NCBI GenBank assembly: GCA_902528515.1
Contig: CABZTD010000016.1
Location: forward strand, 1 to 40,725
Length of the DNA: 40,725 nucleotides
From: K189A clade bacterium
GTDB taxonomy: Bacteria; Pseudomonadota; Gammaproteobacteria; Pseudomonadales; Azotimanducaceae
Direction: 5' to 3'
This document shows, in pieces, positions 548-33,823 of the stretch; positions within the stretch are counted from its first letter, which is position 1, and each line of letters starts with the position of its first letter. The notes under the pieces were generated by a model. That model did no database searches. It was given only the letters and a program-made list of their open reading frames with translations, and was not told where the DNA came from. The translations under genes and the position numbers were made by a program.

Positions 548-3500
548 TCAGGCTGCTTTGCTATCCGCAGACAATAGCCTAAATAGGGCCTGAACGAATA
601 TGACCCGATCCTCAAATGTGGGCAAAGATTCTTCAATTCGCAGAGTTGAGGCACCATCGAGACGGTAGGTACTGCTGTGTTGCTGTACCAACTGCACGAC
701 GGCCATGGGCTCAACCCGGGTGGTTTTGCTGAACTCGATTTTACCCTTGGATTCCGCCAGGTCGATTTTGAGGATGCCCAGGCCCTGTGCGGCAAGTTTC
801 AAAAGAGTGATTTCAAACAGATTCTTAACGGAGTCGGGTAGCAGACCAAATCGGTCGATGATTTCCGCCCGAAGATCATCAAGCTCTACTTCAGTGCCGG
901 CTCCTGCTATGCGCTTGTACAGGATCAGACGACTTTGCACATCGGGTAGGTAGTCTTCGGGTATGAGAGCGGGCACGTGGAGATTCACTTCCTGATTTAC
1001 CGGTTCCAGTGGCGTGTCCCGATCAGGGATCTTGCCGGCCCGCAGCGCTTCCACAGCGCGGTTCAGCATTTCCAGATACAGGGAAAAACCGATGGATTCG
1101 ATTTGGCCCGACTGATCGTCCCCTAGGAGTTCGCCGGTGCCGCGGATTTCCATATCTTGGGTAGCCAGAGTAAAGCCAACGCCAAGTTCTCCCGCGGCCT
1201 CAATCGCCTCTAAGCGTTTCACGGCGTCGGCGGTCATGCTCTTTGGATCGGGCGTGAGTAGATAGGCATAGGCTTGGCGGTGGCTGCGTCCGACCCGCCC
1301 GCGCAGCTGATGTAGCTGCGCTAAGCCGAATTTATCTGCCCGCTCGATAACAATCGTGTTGGCATTTGGAATGTCGATGCCGGTTTCAATAATCGTCGTA
1401 CACACAAGTACGTTGAGGCGACGGTGATAGAACTCGCCCATCACCTGTTCCATTTCGTTCTTACGCATTTGGCCGTGGGCGACGCCAACGCGTGCTTCCG
1501 GAACCAGCGCCTCTATGTCGCTGGCTGCTTGCTCAATGGTTCGCACCTCATTGTGCAAATAAAACACCTGACCACCGCGCATCAGTTCTCGGCTGATGGC
1601 TTCCTTTATGTTGTGGTCTCTTCGTGGCTGCATAAATGTTTTGATCGATAGTCGCTTGGCTGGTGGCGTCGCGATAATCGACAAATCCCTGAGCCCGCTC
1701 AATGACATGTTGAGAGTTCGCGGGATGGGTGTGGCGGTAAGCGTCAGTACGTCGACTTCCGCCCGCATCGCGCGTAAGCGCTCTTTTTGACGCACGCCAA
1801 AACGATGCTCTTCGTCAATGATGACCAGACCTAGGTCGTGATACTTGAAATCCGGATTCAAGAGTTTGTGGGTCCCAATCAGAATATCGATGTTGCCTGA
1901 ACGACAGCGCGCGCTGATGGCGTCGGTTTCCTGCTGACTGCGCTGCCGAGAAACTACGTCGATGCTGATTGGCCAGCTCGCGAATCGATCTCGAAATGAC
2001 TCGAAATGTTGTTGGGCCAGCAGAGTGGTGGGCACCAATAGAATCACCTGTTTGCCGCTTTGCACTGCGGTAAAGGCGGCGCGCATCGCAACTTCGGTTT
2101 TACCGAAACCGACGTCGCCACAGACCAAACGGTCCATCGCTTGCTCCGCCGCCAAATCGCGCAAGGTTTCTTCGATTGCAATGCCTTGGTCCGGAGTGAC
2201 TTCGTAGCCAAACTCGTCGGCAAACGCCTGGTAGTCGTCGGCGTTAGCACTTAATTGATGTGACTTGCGAGCGGCACGCCGCGCATAGATATCGAGCAAT
2301 TCTGCGGCGACGTCGATAACCTTTTCTGCCGCCTTCTTTTTCGCGCGCTCCCATTGATCTGATCCAAGGCGATGCAGCGGGGCACTTTCCTCGTCAGCGC
2401 CAGCATAGCGGCCGACTAGATGCAGGGATGTGACCGGTACATAGAGCTTAGCACTTCCCGCATAACCCAAGGTCAGAAACTCCTCAGCGCTGCCATCAAT
2501 CGTTAGGGTTTGCAGTCCGAGGTATCGGCCGACGCCGTGATCGACATGCACGACCGGCGCACCCATGTTCAGTTCTGTGAGATTGCGGACAATTTGTTCA
2601 GGATCGATAACTCGCTTACTGCTATCGCGTCTTTTGCCACTGGTCCTTGTGCCCAGCACATCGGCTTCGCAGACGATCACACCGTCTGGTAATTCCATAC
2701 CCTGCTGTATAGGGCCAATGCAAATGCTGTGACCGTCACCGACAAGATGCTCTGTAAAACCATCAATGTGCCTGGCCTCGATGTGATGCTTACGCAGGAG
2801 CTCGTCGAGAACCTCACGTCTGCCGGCAGATTCGGCCACAAAAAGCACGCGTTTTTCGCGTTTCTCCACATATTGCTGCAGCAGATGTGCAGGTGTTTCA
2901 GCCTTGGCGTCAACCCGCAGGTCCGGCAAGGGCTGGGCCGCAAACTCGCACTGATGCTTTGGGTGTTCGCCGCCAAGCACGATGCGCTTGCGTGCGCCTA
3001 GGCGCTGATTGAGTTCGTCTGCACCCAGGTAGAGCTTCTGCGGTGCCAGGACAGGTCTCTCGACATCATGGCACAACGACTCGTAGCGTTTGTTCACGTC
3101 GTCTTCAAAAGTTTGGGCGGCTGCTGCCATGCCAGCTTCGGTAATAAAAATGGCATCTTTTGGCAGATAATCGAATAGCGTCGCAAGCTCGTGGAAAAAG
3201 AGCGGCAAATAGTATTCAACACCGTTCGGTGCAATGTAGTTGCTCACGTCCTGATAAATGCTGCACTGACGAACATCTACCTGAAACAGGTCGTGCCATT
3301 GCTCCCGAAACCGGGCAACGGCTGCGTCGTCAAAGGGAAATTCTTTTGCCGGCAACAGGTCCAGACGCTCTATGCGTTCGACAGTCCGCTGAGAATCGGG
3401 ATCAAAGGTCCGCAGGGTATCGATTTCATCATCAAACAGATCGATGCGCACCGGCAGGGCGGCACCCATGGGATAGATGTCCATCAAAGCACCACGCACG

Positions 3501-18248: not shown

Positions 18249-20492
18249 ATGCAAATGCAGACTCCCGTTGTTCGAGACCTGCTGCTACTTGGTGGCGGAC
18301 ATAGCCATGTGCAGGTGCTAAAGCACTTTGCCATGCATCCAGTGCCCGGAATTCGGCTTACGCTTATTTCCGATGACTACGTATCAACCTATTCAGGGAT
18401 GGTGCCGGGTTTCATTGCGGGGCATTACACGTTGGACGAAATTCAAATCGCGCTAGAGCCTTTGTGCCGAGCGGCAGGCGCTCGGTTCATCTGCGCAAGA
18501 GTCACAGGGCTAGATCGAGACGAGCATCGCGTGTTGATGGCGAGGCGCCCGCCACTGCGCTATGACTACCTTTCGATCAACAGCGGCGCACGGCCTGACC
18601 TGAGGGGTATGCCGGGAATTGCGGTTAAACCTATCAGCGGTTTTCTTTCTAGATGGCCCGCAGTACGGGCCAGCCTGCAGGCCGCTCATCAGCCTCAAGC
18701 GATGACAGAATTAACCTCTCCAGGTCGAGGCAGAACGAATAGGAGGGGCCTTATGCTGGTCGGCGCTGGCGCTGGTGGTGTCGAGATGGCTTTCGCTTGC
18801 CGAGCCAGTCTCCCTAGTGTGGTACCGATTAAGTTGGTGGGTCCGACACTTTTGCCCGGTCTGAATCGTCGCGCGAAAAAGCTTGTCGGCAAGGCGATGC
18901 GCGAAAAACGCATCGAGTATATTGCGCAGCGGGTGACGAGTGCGAGCGAGACCCAGGACGGGTATCGCATCACCTTGACCGATGGATCCGCAGAGGAAGC
19001 GTGTGAGCTGCTCTGGGTTACAAATGTTCGTGCTCCTGAGTGGCTGGCCGAGTCCGGTCTTGTTTGTGATGATAAAGGCTTTGCCAAAGTCGACGCGTCA
19101 ATGACGTGCATTGGCGATAGCCACATTTTCGTGGCTGGTGATGCAGCGCATCTGCAAGGACAAGAGCGGGCGAAGGCAGGGGTATTTGCGGTGCGTGCCG
19201 CACCGGTCCTGGCTGCCAACTTGGCGCGAGCTGTTCAGGGATTGCCGCTGCATGGCCCTAGGTCAAGTTTCAGCCCCCAGGAGTCTTTTTTAACCCTAAT
19301 AGGGCTGGGTGCGCCCTGTCGACCGGACGCGATCGCAGTTTGGGGCGCGTGGGCACTACGCGGCAAGATTTTCTGGCGCCTTAAGGACTGGATCGACCAG
19401 CGCTTCATACGTCGATACAACGAATTGCCCTCGATGGGAGCTGAGTCGGTCGACTTGCCCGAGTCTCTTGCTGGGGCGTTACCCGACGATCGTATGCGCT
19501 GTGGCGGATGCGGCGCCAAACTCGCCTCTGATCCATTAGGGCGAGTATTAAAGAGACTGCCTACACAATCCGCTCCACATGTGGTCCTTGGCATTGGCGA
19601 CGACGCAGCCGAGGTGCGGCATGGTACGGGGTCGACCTTACTCAGCGTTGATGGCTTTCGCGCGATGATCGACGATCCATATCTTTTAGGCAGAATTTGC
19701 GCCCACCACAGTCTCAATGACCTGTACGCGATGGGCGCGCAGCCTGCTTCTGCGCTAGCACTCGCAACGATTCCACTTATGGCGGAACCCATGATGGAAG
19801 AGGAGCTTTACCAATTGCTATCTGGGGCCGTGGATGTTCTTAACAAAAGTAGCGCTCCGCTTGTGGGCGGGCATTCTGCGGAGGGCGCTGAACTTAGCAT
19901 TGCCCTGACTGTCACCGGAGCGCCAGGCCAGACTACTCTCAGGAAGTCTGGTGCCCAAGTAGGCGATGTACTTATCCTGACCAAACCCTTGGGTACCGGA
20001 GTGATTCTTGCGGGTGCGATGCGCGGTATCCATGTTCCCGGCGCAATATCTGCGGCGGTCGACTGCATGGACAGCAGTAATGCTCTGTCAGTTGAGATAC
20101 TGCAAGACTGTGGCGTAAATGCATTGACCGATGTCACTGGTTTTGGGTTGTTAGGTCATCTGTCAGAGATGCTTCGAGCCAGTAACTGTGGGGTAGCCTT
20201 ACGTCTCGCCGATATACCTTTGCTGCCAGGGGCACTGCCCATGGCGAAACGCAATATTGCAAGTTCTCTGCAAGATGCTAATGCCCTCGTCCTTAGGGAT
20301 TTTCGTTTGGTCGACGATCTCGATCCGTGCCGTCTCGCGATTCTCAGCGATCCGCAAACCTCCGGCGGCATGCTGGCTAGTGTGCCAGCTCACCAGGCCG
20401 ATACCTGCATAAAAGCACTGCGCGATCGGCAGATTGAAGCGGCGAAGATTGGCGACATTGTGCCCGCATCCACGCGCATCGTCACGGCTTAG
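18249..20492 (+). CDS. selD: FAD/NAD(P) oxidoreductase - selenophosphate synthetase (SelD) fusion
   Basis: This 747-residue fusion makes selenophosphate, the selenium donor for selenocysteine and 2-selenouridine. Residues about 1-390 are a type-II NADH-dehydrogenase-like flavoprotein: the FAD motif LLLGGGHSHVQVLKH, a second nucleotide motif MLVGAGAGGVEMAF, and the FAD-binding segment HIFVAGDAAHLQ. Residues about 415-747 are SelD: RCGGCGAK carries the catalytic Cys421 (TGC, not TGA) and Lys424; GIGDDAAEV and SVDGFRAMIDDP form the ATP/Mg region; TDVTGFGLLGHL and SDPQTSGG follow. The flavin domain may reduce a selenium source for SelD; that role is inference. ATG 18249 lacks a strong ribosome site. 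The gene is convergent with metX, nine bases apart. Its presence fits the selenoprotein at 25233-25574. Confidence 0.94.
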   Translation: MQMQTPVVRDLLLLGGGHSHVQVLKHFAMHPVPGIRLTLISDDYVSTYSGMVPGFIAGHYTLDEIQIALEPLCRAAGARFICARVTGLDRDEHRVLMARRPPLRYDYLSINSGARPDLRGMPGIAVKPISGFLSRWPAVRASLQAAHQPQAMTELTSPGRGRTNRRGLMLVGAGAGGVEMAFACRASLPSVVPIKLVGPTLLPGLNRRAKKLVGKAMREKRIEYIAQRVTSASETQDGYRITLTDGSAEEACELLWVTNVRAPEWLAESGLVCDDKGFAKVDASMTCIGDSHIFVAGDAAHLQGQERAKAGVFAVRAAPVLAANLARAVQGLPLHGPRSSFSPQESFLTLIGLGAPCRPDAIAVWGAWALRGKIFWRLKDWIDQRFIRRYNELPSMGAESVDLPESLAGALPDDRMRCGGCGAKLASDPLGRVLKRLPTQSAPHVVLGIGDDAAEVRHGTGSTLLSVDGFRAMIDDPYLLGRICAHHSLNDLYAMGAQPASALALATIPLMAEPMMEEELYQLLSGAVDVLNKSSAPLVGGHSAEGAELSIALTVTGAPGQTTLRKSGAQVGDVLILTKPLGTGVILAGAMRGIHVPGAISAAVDCMDSSNALSVEILQDCGVNALTDVTGFGLLGHLSEMLRASNCGVALRLADIPLLPGALPMAKRNIASSLQDANALVLRDFRLVDDLDPCRLAILSDPQTSGGMLASVPAHQADTCIKALRDRQIEAAKIGDIVPASTRIVTA

Positions 20493-24522: not shown

Positions 24523-25176
24523 TCAGGCCCAAGTTGCCCAAGAGTCCAGTGGCATGCGATCTGAAACGAGGGTGTTGACCGGCGCGCTAGGGTTCTTAAA
24601 GCCGATGGCCATGCCGCAAAACAGCATTAGATTGTCCGGGGTCTGCAAAAATGAAGTTACGGCTTTGGGACGCGTAGCCCAGGCCTCCTGCGCACAAGTG
24701 TCAATGCCTGCTTCCTGAGCAAGAAGCATAAAGGTCTGCAAAAACATCCCAAGGTCGGACCACTGAGGAGGGCCCATGTTTTCATCGATCAAACAAAAAA
24801 ACGCCGCGGGGGCGCCAAAAAACTCAAAATTTCTGGCCAAATGTGCAAATCGTGCGGCTTTGTCTTCGCGAGGAATGCCTAGCAAGCCATACATATCCTC
24901 ACCGACCTTAAAGCGGCTATCGCGATAAGGAGAGGGCAAGTCCTTGGGGTAAATGTCGTAGGCTGGGGTTTCGCGGGACTGGTGTTCCGACAAATGGCTT
25001 AAAAAATCTTGCATCCGGGCGCCGTTGATCACCTGAATTTGCCACGGCTGTACGTTGCCGCCCGAGGGCGCCCGGGCTGACTTGGCGAGTAGCTCTCTAA
25101 TAACGTCGTCACTGACTGGCGTGTCAAGAAAGGATCTTATTGAGCGGCGGGCCGCCACGGCGTCACTAACATTCAT
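24523..25176 (-). CDS. Nitroreductase family protein
   Basis: This 217-residue FMN-dependent NAD(P)H oxidoreductase has the N-terminal RRSIRSFLDTPV motif and ARAPSGGNVQPWQIQVI, both contacting FMN in the NfnB/NfsA-like fold. The segment WSDLGMFLQTFMLLAQEAGIDTCAQEAW is also typical. Substrates could be nitroaromatics, quinones or enones. It lies 56 bases downstream of the selenoprotein gene on the same strand, with a hairpin between them, so the two may share a transcript. A second related nitroreductase is at 33070-33705. Confidence 0.93.
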   Translation of the reverse strand: MNVSDAVAARRSIRSFLDTPVSDDVIRELLAKSARAPSGGNVQPWQIQVINGARMQDFLSHLSEHQSRETPAYDIYPKDLPSPYRDSRFKVGEDMYGLLGIPREDKAARFAHLARNFEFFGAPAAFFCLIDENMGPPQWSDLGMFLQTFMLLAQEAGIDTCAQEAWATRPKAVTSFLQTPDNLMLFCGMAIGFKNPSAPVNTLVSDRMPLDSWATWA

Positions 25177-25232: not shown

Positions 25233-25574
25233 TTACTTGAACGCTGCGCTGTAAGTGTCTTCGTTAAAGCCAACGAGGATGTGTTTGCCGACGATAGCGG
25301 TTGGTGCACGTAGGTTGCCCGTACTACCTAGCATGGCTTCGACAGCTTCCTCAGACGCCTTGCTGCCACCTGCAAACTCAGTCACTTTTTTACCTTTGGA
25401 GACCACCATGGTTTTGGCCTTGGCCAACAACGCTTCGGCGTCCTCGCGCTGAAGTTTGCGGCTGGCGGGTATGGCCTCTGAAATTTCTATTTTGCTTGCT
25501 TCCAAAAACTTGGATGCTCGAGTGCAGCTGGTTCATCCGCCGCGAAAATAATACCAATCGACTTTTTTGCTCAT
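25233..25574 (-). CDS. ArsC/Spx-like thioredoxin-fold selenoprotein (in-frame UGA = selenocysteine)
   Basis: This 113-residue gene runs from ATG 25574, with AGGA eight bases upstream, to a stop at 25233, with one in-frame TGA at 25535-25533. Reading TGA as selenocysteine gives VDWYYFRGG-U14-TSC17-TRASKFLE, a UxxC redox motif at the position of the CxxC of Spx and related ArsC-family proteins. Downstream, TGNLRAPTAIVGKHILVGFNEDTY matches the conserved C-terminal part of ArsC-like proteins. Protein-like sequence continues in one frame on both sides of the TGA, which argues against a pseudogene. A SECIS-like hairpin lies at the expected distance and selD is in the window. It probably catalyses a thiol/selenol redox reaction; arsenate reduction is not shown. 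Conventional calling would yield only a TTG-start fragment of 90 residues from 25505. Confidence 0.87.
25498..25517 (-). promoter_or_regulatory. Putative bacterial SECIS element
   Basis: On the minus strand, 23 nt separate the UGA from an apical loop GUUU (25509-25506). The stem pairs G25517-C25498, C25516-G25499, U25514-A25501, C25513-G25502, C25512-G25503, A25511-U25504 and A25510-U25505, with an A-A mismatch at 25515/25500. A short stem with G and U at the start of the loop, placed about 16-37 nt after UGA, is the known bacterial SECIS pattern recognised by SelB. Folding was done by eye. Confidence 0.75.
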
Positions 25575-25749
25575 GAACTTGTCCTATTGTGATTGAATCT
25601 GACATGGTTGTCGTATCACCTATGGTAGGCGTCAGCAGCAATTATAGGGAAATACGACGCCACTAAGCTACGCCGTCGTGAGCGGATGACAAGGTAGTGA
25701 GGTATATGTTGATGGGCTAAGATCGGACGGATAGGGAAAGGAGAGGAAA

Positions 25750-33069: not shown

Positions 33070-33705
33070 TTACCACCGGTTATAGCGGACCATTTGATCA
33101 ACAGAGCGGCGACGAATGCTGCCATGCCCGCCCAAAACAGGATGACCTATAGGAATATGCGCGCAGGTGTACCAGTCTTCTGGGATGTCCAGTAGGTCTT
33201 TCACCGCTGATTCTTCGTAGCACAGGAGGGTGGTGATTACGCAACCCAGACCCTCATTGCGGCATGCCAAAAGGAAGTTCTGGACCGCAGGGTATACCGA
33301 TCCGCCGCCAACCACGCTGGGTCGGTCCAGGTCGCTATCAGTAATGGCCATTAACTTGGGGTTGAAGCAGAAAATCGCAATCAGCGGCGCCTCGTGCATA
33401 TGAGCGGCCAGATAGTTACCGGCGTCCAGGGCCTTGATACTAGAGGTCTTGACGTCTTCGGGCATTTGGCCCAAGCGGGCCTCGTAGCCGGGCACATATG
33501 CGTCCCAATGAGGTTTGTAAAGGTCCTGCAGCGCCTGCTTTAACTCAGCGTCTGTGACTGCGATGATCCGCCAGGGCTGAGTATTTCCACCTGTTGGTGC
33601 CCATGTGGCGGCAGTGAGCACACGCTCGATGACGGCCTCCTCAATTGGGTCTGGTCGAAGTCTGCGCACAGCACGCAGTGTGCTCATGGCCTCGTATAGA
33701 TCCAT
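33070..33705 (-). CDS. Nitroreductase family protein (second copy)
   Basis: This 211-residue FMN oxidoreductase has MSTLRAVRRLRPDPIEE and AATWAPTGGNTQPWRIIAV for FMN binding, and a C-terminal LLACRNEGLGCVITTLLC segment typical of the fold. ATG 33705 follows GGGGATAGG at suitable spacing; the start at 33732 would add nine residues and lacks a site. It shares motif layout with the nitroreductase at 24523 but is clearly diverged, so they are probably not recent duplicates. It lies about 125 bases upstream of the transporter on the same strand and may be co-transcribed with the transporter and PhyH genes. Confidence 0.92.
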   Translation of the reverse strand: MDLYEAMSTLRAVRRLRPDPIEEAVIERVLTAATWAPTGGNTQPWRIIAVTDAELKQALQDLYKPHWDAYVPGYEARLGQMPEDVKTSSIKALDAGNYLAAHMHEAPLIAIFCFNPKLMAITDSDLDRPSVVGGGSVYPAVQNFLLACRNEGLGCVITTLLCYEESAVKDLLDIPEDWYTCAHIPIGHPVLGGHGSIRRRSVDQMVRYNRW

Positions 33706-33823
33706 AATCCTATCCCCTTTGCCGTAAAACATGGCCTATTTAGAGGGGGATTTCTAGCCTTTTCTGAGAACAGTTATGGCGATGATCGAGGCACAAACTT
33801 CTGGTAGTGAGGAGCGAGTTTTG

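Follow-up and report, generated by a model that had tools for sequence, protein, structure and literature searches.

A UGA-interrupted gene on the minus strand

The window, the whole 40,725-nucleotide stretch of contig CABZTD010000016.1 analysed here, carries on its minus strand a reading frame that runs from an ATG at 25574 to a TAA at 25235–25233 and contains a single in-frame UGA, at 25535–25533. When this UGA, codon 14, is read as selenocysteine (Sec), the frame (25233–25574) encodes a product of 113 residues with the motif U14-T-S-C17, which belongs to the NF041106 family. On the sequence evidence of the frame, the profile match and the conservation of the UGA, the locus very probably holds a genuine selenoprotein gene, with a predicted Sec at the active site of its product. 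A preliminary description of the locus had proposed the same frame with identical coordinates, and the AGGA that it noted upstream lies at 25585–25582 on the minus strand, just 5' of the ATG, for which it is the likely ribosome-binding site. Of the 32 printed sequences, most have, as judged by eye, a purine-rich stretch resembling AGGA ahead of the start codon.

In a listing of open reading frames under translation table 11, the only entry in this frame is a 90-residue ORF that begins at a TTG (25233–25505), the fragment that the preliminary description expected of standard gene calling; an ordinary listing would here shorten a selenoprotein that reading of the raw sequence recovered. A codon-usage scan of the UGA-interrupted frames of the window outside its 25 long ORFs ranked this frame top with a score of 28.9, the next among the four listed reaching 9.8. 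Variation in codons 2–13, on the 5' side of the UGA, is mostly synonymous (pS 0.74, pN 0.18, pN/pS 0.25; 26 of the 32 sequences, after removal of 6 near-duplicates), which argues that these codons are translated and bears out the earlier impression that the sequence ahead of the UGA is conserved as protein.

The next gene downstream, at 24523–25176 on the minus strand, encodes a nitroreductase-family protein (PF00881, 4e-26) and may be an operon mate in close relatives only. Its neighbour cluster recurs in 14 of 32 loci and that of a divergent epimerase-like gene in 13 of 32, both counts being lower bounds because several loci have short flanks. Outside the close relatives, neither neighbour was seen among these 32 loci, several with short flanks, aside from one nitroreductase gene about 3 kb off in L015. 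As both neighbours were, with that one exception, seen in close relatives only, we rejected the neighbourhood as a clue to function. For both the nitroreductase-family gene and a second minus-strand gene about 8 kb away (33070–33732), the BluB model gives a match below its cut-off.

Conservation of the UGA and a hairpin on its 3' side

From a scan of GTDB species genomes we took 33 related loci, of which 31 share the UGA at this codon position, with identities ranging from 97% to 38% and record labels that include Pseudomonadales, Gammaproteobacteria, Myxococcota, Acidobacteria, Planctomycetales and Melainabacteria. The 97%-identical gene comes from a public MAG (L002). In the remaining two loci, both from Bacillaceae (L033 and L034), a Cys is aligned at the UGA column and the Spx/MgsR model is passed instead; these were left out of the main alignment, which comprises the window and the other 31 loci. 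Its invariant residues include W7, Y9, R11, G13, residue 14, C17, K60-G61-K62, G86-N87, R89, P91 and G102. In 7 of the 31 printed frames (L008, L015, L020, L023, L024, L028 and L031) a second UGA stands where the protein is expected to end, so that UGA seems to serve as both Sec codon and stop within one gene.

A wider survey of the same taxonomic family found a match in 79 of 150 genomes, at 80 places, 78 of which are listed with one TGA, including a short fragment at the end of a contig (G780). The position of the TGA was checked in the copies that were fetched (the 18 copies of the 17 loci L097–L113, the piece L096, L036–L042 and L090–L093); all 18 copies of L097–L113, which are partly the same genes as those of the 33 loci, have the UGA at the same codon. 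One of the two places without a TGA, in G764, carries no information, since the match is partial and a run of N falls within the portion that is missing. An enlarged alignment of 42 rows added 16 of 23 further copies, the other 7 being left out as near-duplicates. One contig of G723 carries two copies of the UGA gene separated by about 2 kb (L112:407–472 and 2656–2721, minus strand), and their hairpin loop, in the element described below, reads GGUC instead of GUUU. A search for a plasmid-borne copy gave no match among 72,556 records. When NF041106 was searched across the phylum, 117 of 398 genomes matched at E≤0.001, with only the window's own protein over the cut-off; the other listed rows have no internal stops, and we assume them to be ordinary Cys-containing ArsC/Spx-like proteins.

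A full-length homologue from the same taxonomic family (G685, L094:1826–2167, minus strand) has TGT in place of the UGA, which gives the motif C-P-A-C, and passes the NF041106 cut-off with 93.1 bits. The stretch of 26 nucleotides corresponding to the hairpin folds to only −2.8 kcal/mol in this gene, compared with −4.9 to −13.9 kcal/mol in the UGA copies that were folded. By sequence it is a natural Sec/Cys exchange without the hairpin, in a genome that keeps selA. The earlier suggestion that homologues be compared for a Cys at this codon has thus been answered by UGA in 31 loci, Cys in two and TGT in L094.

The stem-loop that the preliminary description placed 23 nucleotides after the UGA corresponds to a hairpin at 25517–25498 on the minus strand, a stem with an A.A mismatch closed by a GUUU loop, the G of which (25509) lies at that distance. 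Bacterial SECIS elements are modelled, in a 2026 review, with a loop of 3–9 nucleotides, an upper stem of 4–16 base pairs, a distance of 16–37 nucleotides from the UGA, a G within the first two loop positions and a minimum free energy of −7.5 kcal/mol or lower (PMC13188914). The geometry of the hairpin, a 4-nucleotide loop starting with G, an upper stem of 5 base pairs and a spacing of 23 nucleotides, falls within this description, and the 26-nucleotide segment folds at −7.3 kcal/mol, just short of the limit quoted there. Predicted stability is thus marginal. Single-sequence folding of a 59-nucleotide stretch gave another structure, at −8.7 kcal/mol, a value that shuffled sequences match (z 0.21), and the RNAalifold consensus is weak (−1.7 kcal/mol, only 5 pairs, 3 of them in this stem). 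At the gathering scores of Rfam, the window yielded one tRNA only.

The stem was also compared across sequences. Among 26 sequences, 84.6% of cells pair, three pairs have changed on both sides and the covariation of 0.114 lies above all 500 shuffles; among 42 sequences, 83.0% of cells pair, five pairs have changed on both sides and the covariation of 0.105 again exceeds all shuffles. On two other measures, 11 and 17 of 500 shuffles reached the value observed with 26 sequences, and on one measure 16 of 500 did so with 42. When the structure is slid along the alignment, no more than 49.7% of cells pair, although a shift of −1 gives a covariation (0.083) close to that of the unshifted structure and equals or almost equals it in the number of pairs with two-sided changes. 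Where the third base of codon 20 meets that of codon 25, six pair types occur, with 23 of the 42 sequences, including the window, unpaired at this position; among the 26 sequences, no synonymous difference was seen in codons 21 and 22. We read the hairpin as a real but weak mini-SECIS, judging from covariation and folding.

Selenocysteine machinery

The preliminary description had pointed to a selD gene about 5 kb away and suggested a search of the rest of the genome for selA, selB and selC. SelD forms the C-terminal part of a fusion gene at 18249–20492 on the plus strand, about 4.7 kb from the selenoprotein gene, and as a selenophosphate synthetase would be the source of activated selenium (TIGR00476, 258.4 bits, cut-off 125; TIGR03169, 343.4 bits, cut-off 310). 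In this fusion SelD stands behind a pyridine nucleotide-disulfide oxidoreductase domain, and a fusion model labelled 'not SelD', TIGR04369, scores 467.9, under its cut-off of 700. The remaining components, selA, selB and the gene for tRNA-Sec (selC), lie near each other on another contig of the same genome (C7), each over its cut-off.

Across 293 genomes of the order, selA is over its cut-off in 39, and every one of the 8 genomes with a near full-length UGA copy belongs to these 39 (Fisher p 5e-8, a value that is too small because the 8 holders represent one taxonomic family). Since all 12 sampled genomes of that family have selA, the association is partly a matter of kinship. Of the family's 77 genomes that carry a UGA copy (partial in one case), 6 gave no selA match and 3 more, among these draft genomes, gave only pieces under the cut-off; two of the 6 without a match are 93% and 96% complete. 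The order also yielded two further weak matches, one in G151, which has no TGA and is absent from the list of selA genomes, and one in G255, which has both a TGA and selA. The latter (L043:1471–1800, plus strand) is a more distant UGA-containing ArsC-like protein with the motif U-T-G-C, from another bacterial family of the order, and scores 78.4 bits against the NF041106 cut-off of 85.

Family membership, fold and predicted activity

The window protein matches the 'ArsC family (seleno)protein' model NF041106 (ArsC_rel_Se_1) over all of its 107 positions (106.5 bits, E 1e-30, curated cut-off 85), and nothing sets it apart within that family, in which it scores lower than the distant L031 (144.4 bits) and L032 (138.4 bits). 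In the 2026 review, NF041106 stands under the name 'Arsenate reductase-like protein' with the same UxxC motif and is credited to reference 61, Zhang and Gladyshev 2008, the ocean-metagenome (GOS) survey (PMC13188914). A table of that survey gives an 'Arsenate reductase 2', UxxC, with 42 selenoprotein sequences in 21 samples (PMC2398784), which we infer to be the same group, and an 'Arsenate reductase-like protein' with UxxC also appears in a 2022 review (PMC9312934). The selenoprotein reading is therefore not new: the NF041106 cut-off is passed, and the family already stands in a database and in reviews. Judged by these sources, the window gene is a further copy in a catalogued selenoprotein family, and the earlier view that such a gene looks undescribed finds no support; the marine-metagenome precedent that the same description named is supported by the 2008 survey. 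Much else of that interpretation stands, namely the selenoprotein itself, the Sec-x-x-Cys motif, the Spx/ArsC-like fold and the Sec machinery.

An AlphaFold2 model of the protein (pLDDT 88.7, pTM 0.79) places residue 14 just before a helix of residues 15–26. Searched with Foldseek, the model finds its best PDB matches in Spx chains, with a moderate TM (0.55) and an rmsd of 6–8 Å, in keeping with the earlier assignment of U-T-S-C to an Spx/ArsC-like active site. In a profile comparison with PDB sequences, a putative arsenate reductase (2m46) came first at 1.2e-8 and Spx second at 5e-7. Glutaredoxin-like (seleno)proteins of the Uxx-star type (NF041212), which we take to resemble the window protein as small thioredoxin-fold selenoproteins, differ in that it scores 18.0 bits against their cut-off of 66.

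Both Spx placements would suit a redox regulator of the Spx kind, in which a Sec14–Cys17 switch is oxidized in stress and acts on RNA polymerase or another partner, the protein being no enzyme. The fold is indeed shared, and UxxC stands where Spx/MgsR proteins have CxxC. However, Sec replaces the first Cys, the sequence RAP is found where two Spx/MgsR-type rows have KRP, and the score of 33.9 bits lies well under the TIGR01617 cut-off of 75.05, as it does under all Spx cut-offs, on which ground we rejected membership of Spx. We regard such a regulator as unlikely. We would also give little credence to its wider form, a Spx-type Sec redox sensor of marine gammaproteobacteria and several other phyla that would read oxidants or selenium status and act on transcription or a partner protein. 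A selenium version of arsenate reductase, with Sec14 attacking arsenate and glutathione or Cys17 completing the cycle, would agree with the name 'Arsenate reductase-like' in the catalogue of the 2026 review (PMC13188914) and with a weak match to the ArsC superfamily (PF03960, 19.4 bits, under the gathering score of 24). Yet the model of glutaredoxin-dependent ArsC, TIGR00014 (cut-off 106.05), is not among the 9 families that match the window protein at E≤1, and the genome has a separate, canonical ArsC on contig C29 (TIGR00014, 140.5 bits) with a CSKS motif where the window protein has UxxC. Of the three arginines of ArsC, presumably only R89 is placed to match one, which also counts against this reading. 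Lacking the support of a family model and with a separate ArsC in the genome, a role as main arsenate reductase was set aside, and we consider an arsenate-reducing selenoprotein improbable.

That no selenoprotein is made at all, the UGA being an ordinary stop or a sequencing error and the 90-residue TTG ORF the only product, would fit the presence of that ORF and the weakness of the hairpin in single-sequence folding. The UGA is, however, common to 31 of 33 loci from separate assemblies, the codons on its 5' side are constrained, a Cys version exists in L094, and selA, selB, selC and SelD are all present. We rejected sequencing error and ordinary stop on the shared UGA and the constraint on codons 2–13, and hold this last reading to be extremely unlikely.

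We favour a Sec-containing member of the ArsC-related NF041106 family, and its role as a selenol/thiol oxidoreductase is likely from the sequence. It would most likely be a selenol oxidoreductase and not the cell's main arsenate reductase, and there is no sign here of a role as transcription regulator. Selenol or thiol chemistry is what this motif and fold suggest, as in thioredoxin-fold enzymes generally. Starting from what is shown here (the gene structure, the conserved UGA, the Cys version, the hairpin covariation, the Sec machinery and the family membership), the following scheme can be proposed. Codon 14, a UGA, would be decoded by SelB and tRNA-Sec with the aid of the hairpin on its 3' side. 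The predicted product is a single thioredoxin-fold domain of the Spx/ArsC type, in which the redox motif Sec14-x-x-Cys17 stands just before helix 15–26 and the invariant Pro91 is most likely the cis-proline of the fold. To judge from fold and motif, Sec14 might then attack a disulfide, a peroxide or a similar oxidized substrate, Cys17 might resolve the intermediate by forming a selenenylsulfide, and the protein might be returned to its reduced form by glutathione/glutaredoxin or thioredoxin.

Because the family is already in the database and in reviews, its biochemical function would be the real step forward. What the present data set adds for NF041106 is a UGA kept in records of several phyla, a natural Cys version without the hairpin, and, for the hairpin itself, compensatory changes that fall on third codon positions.
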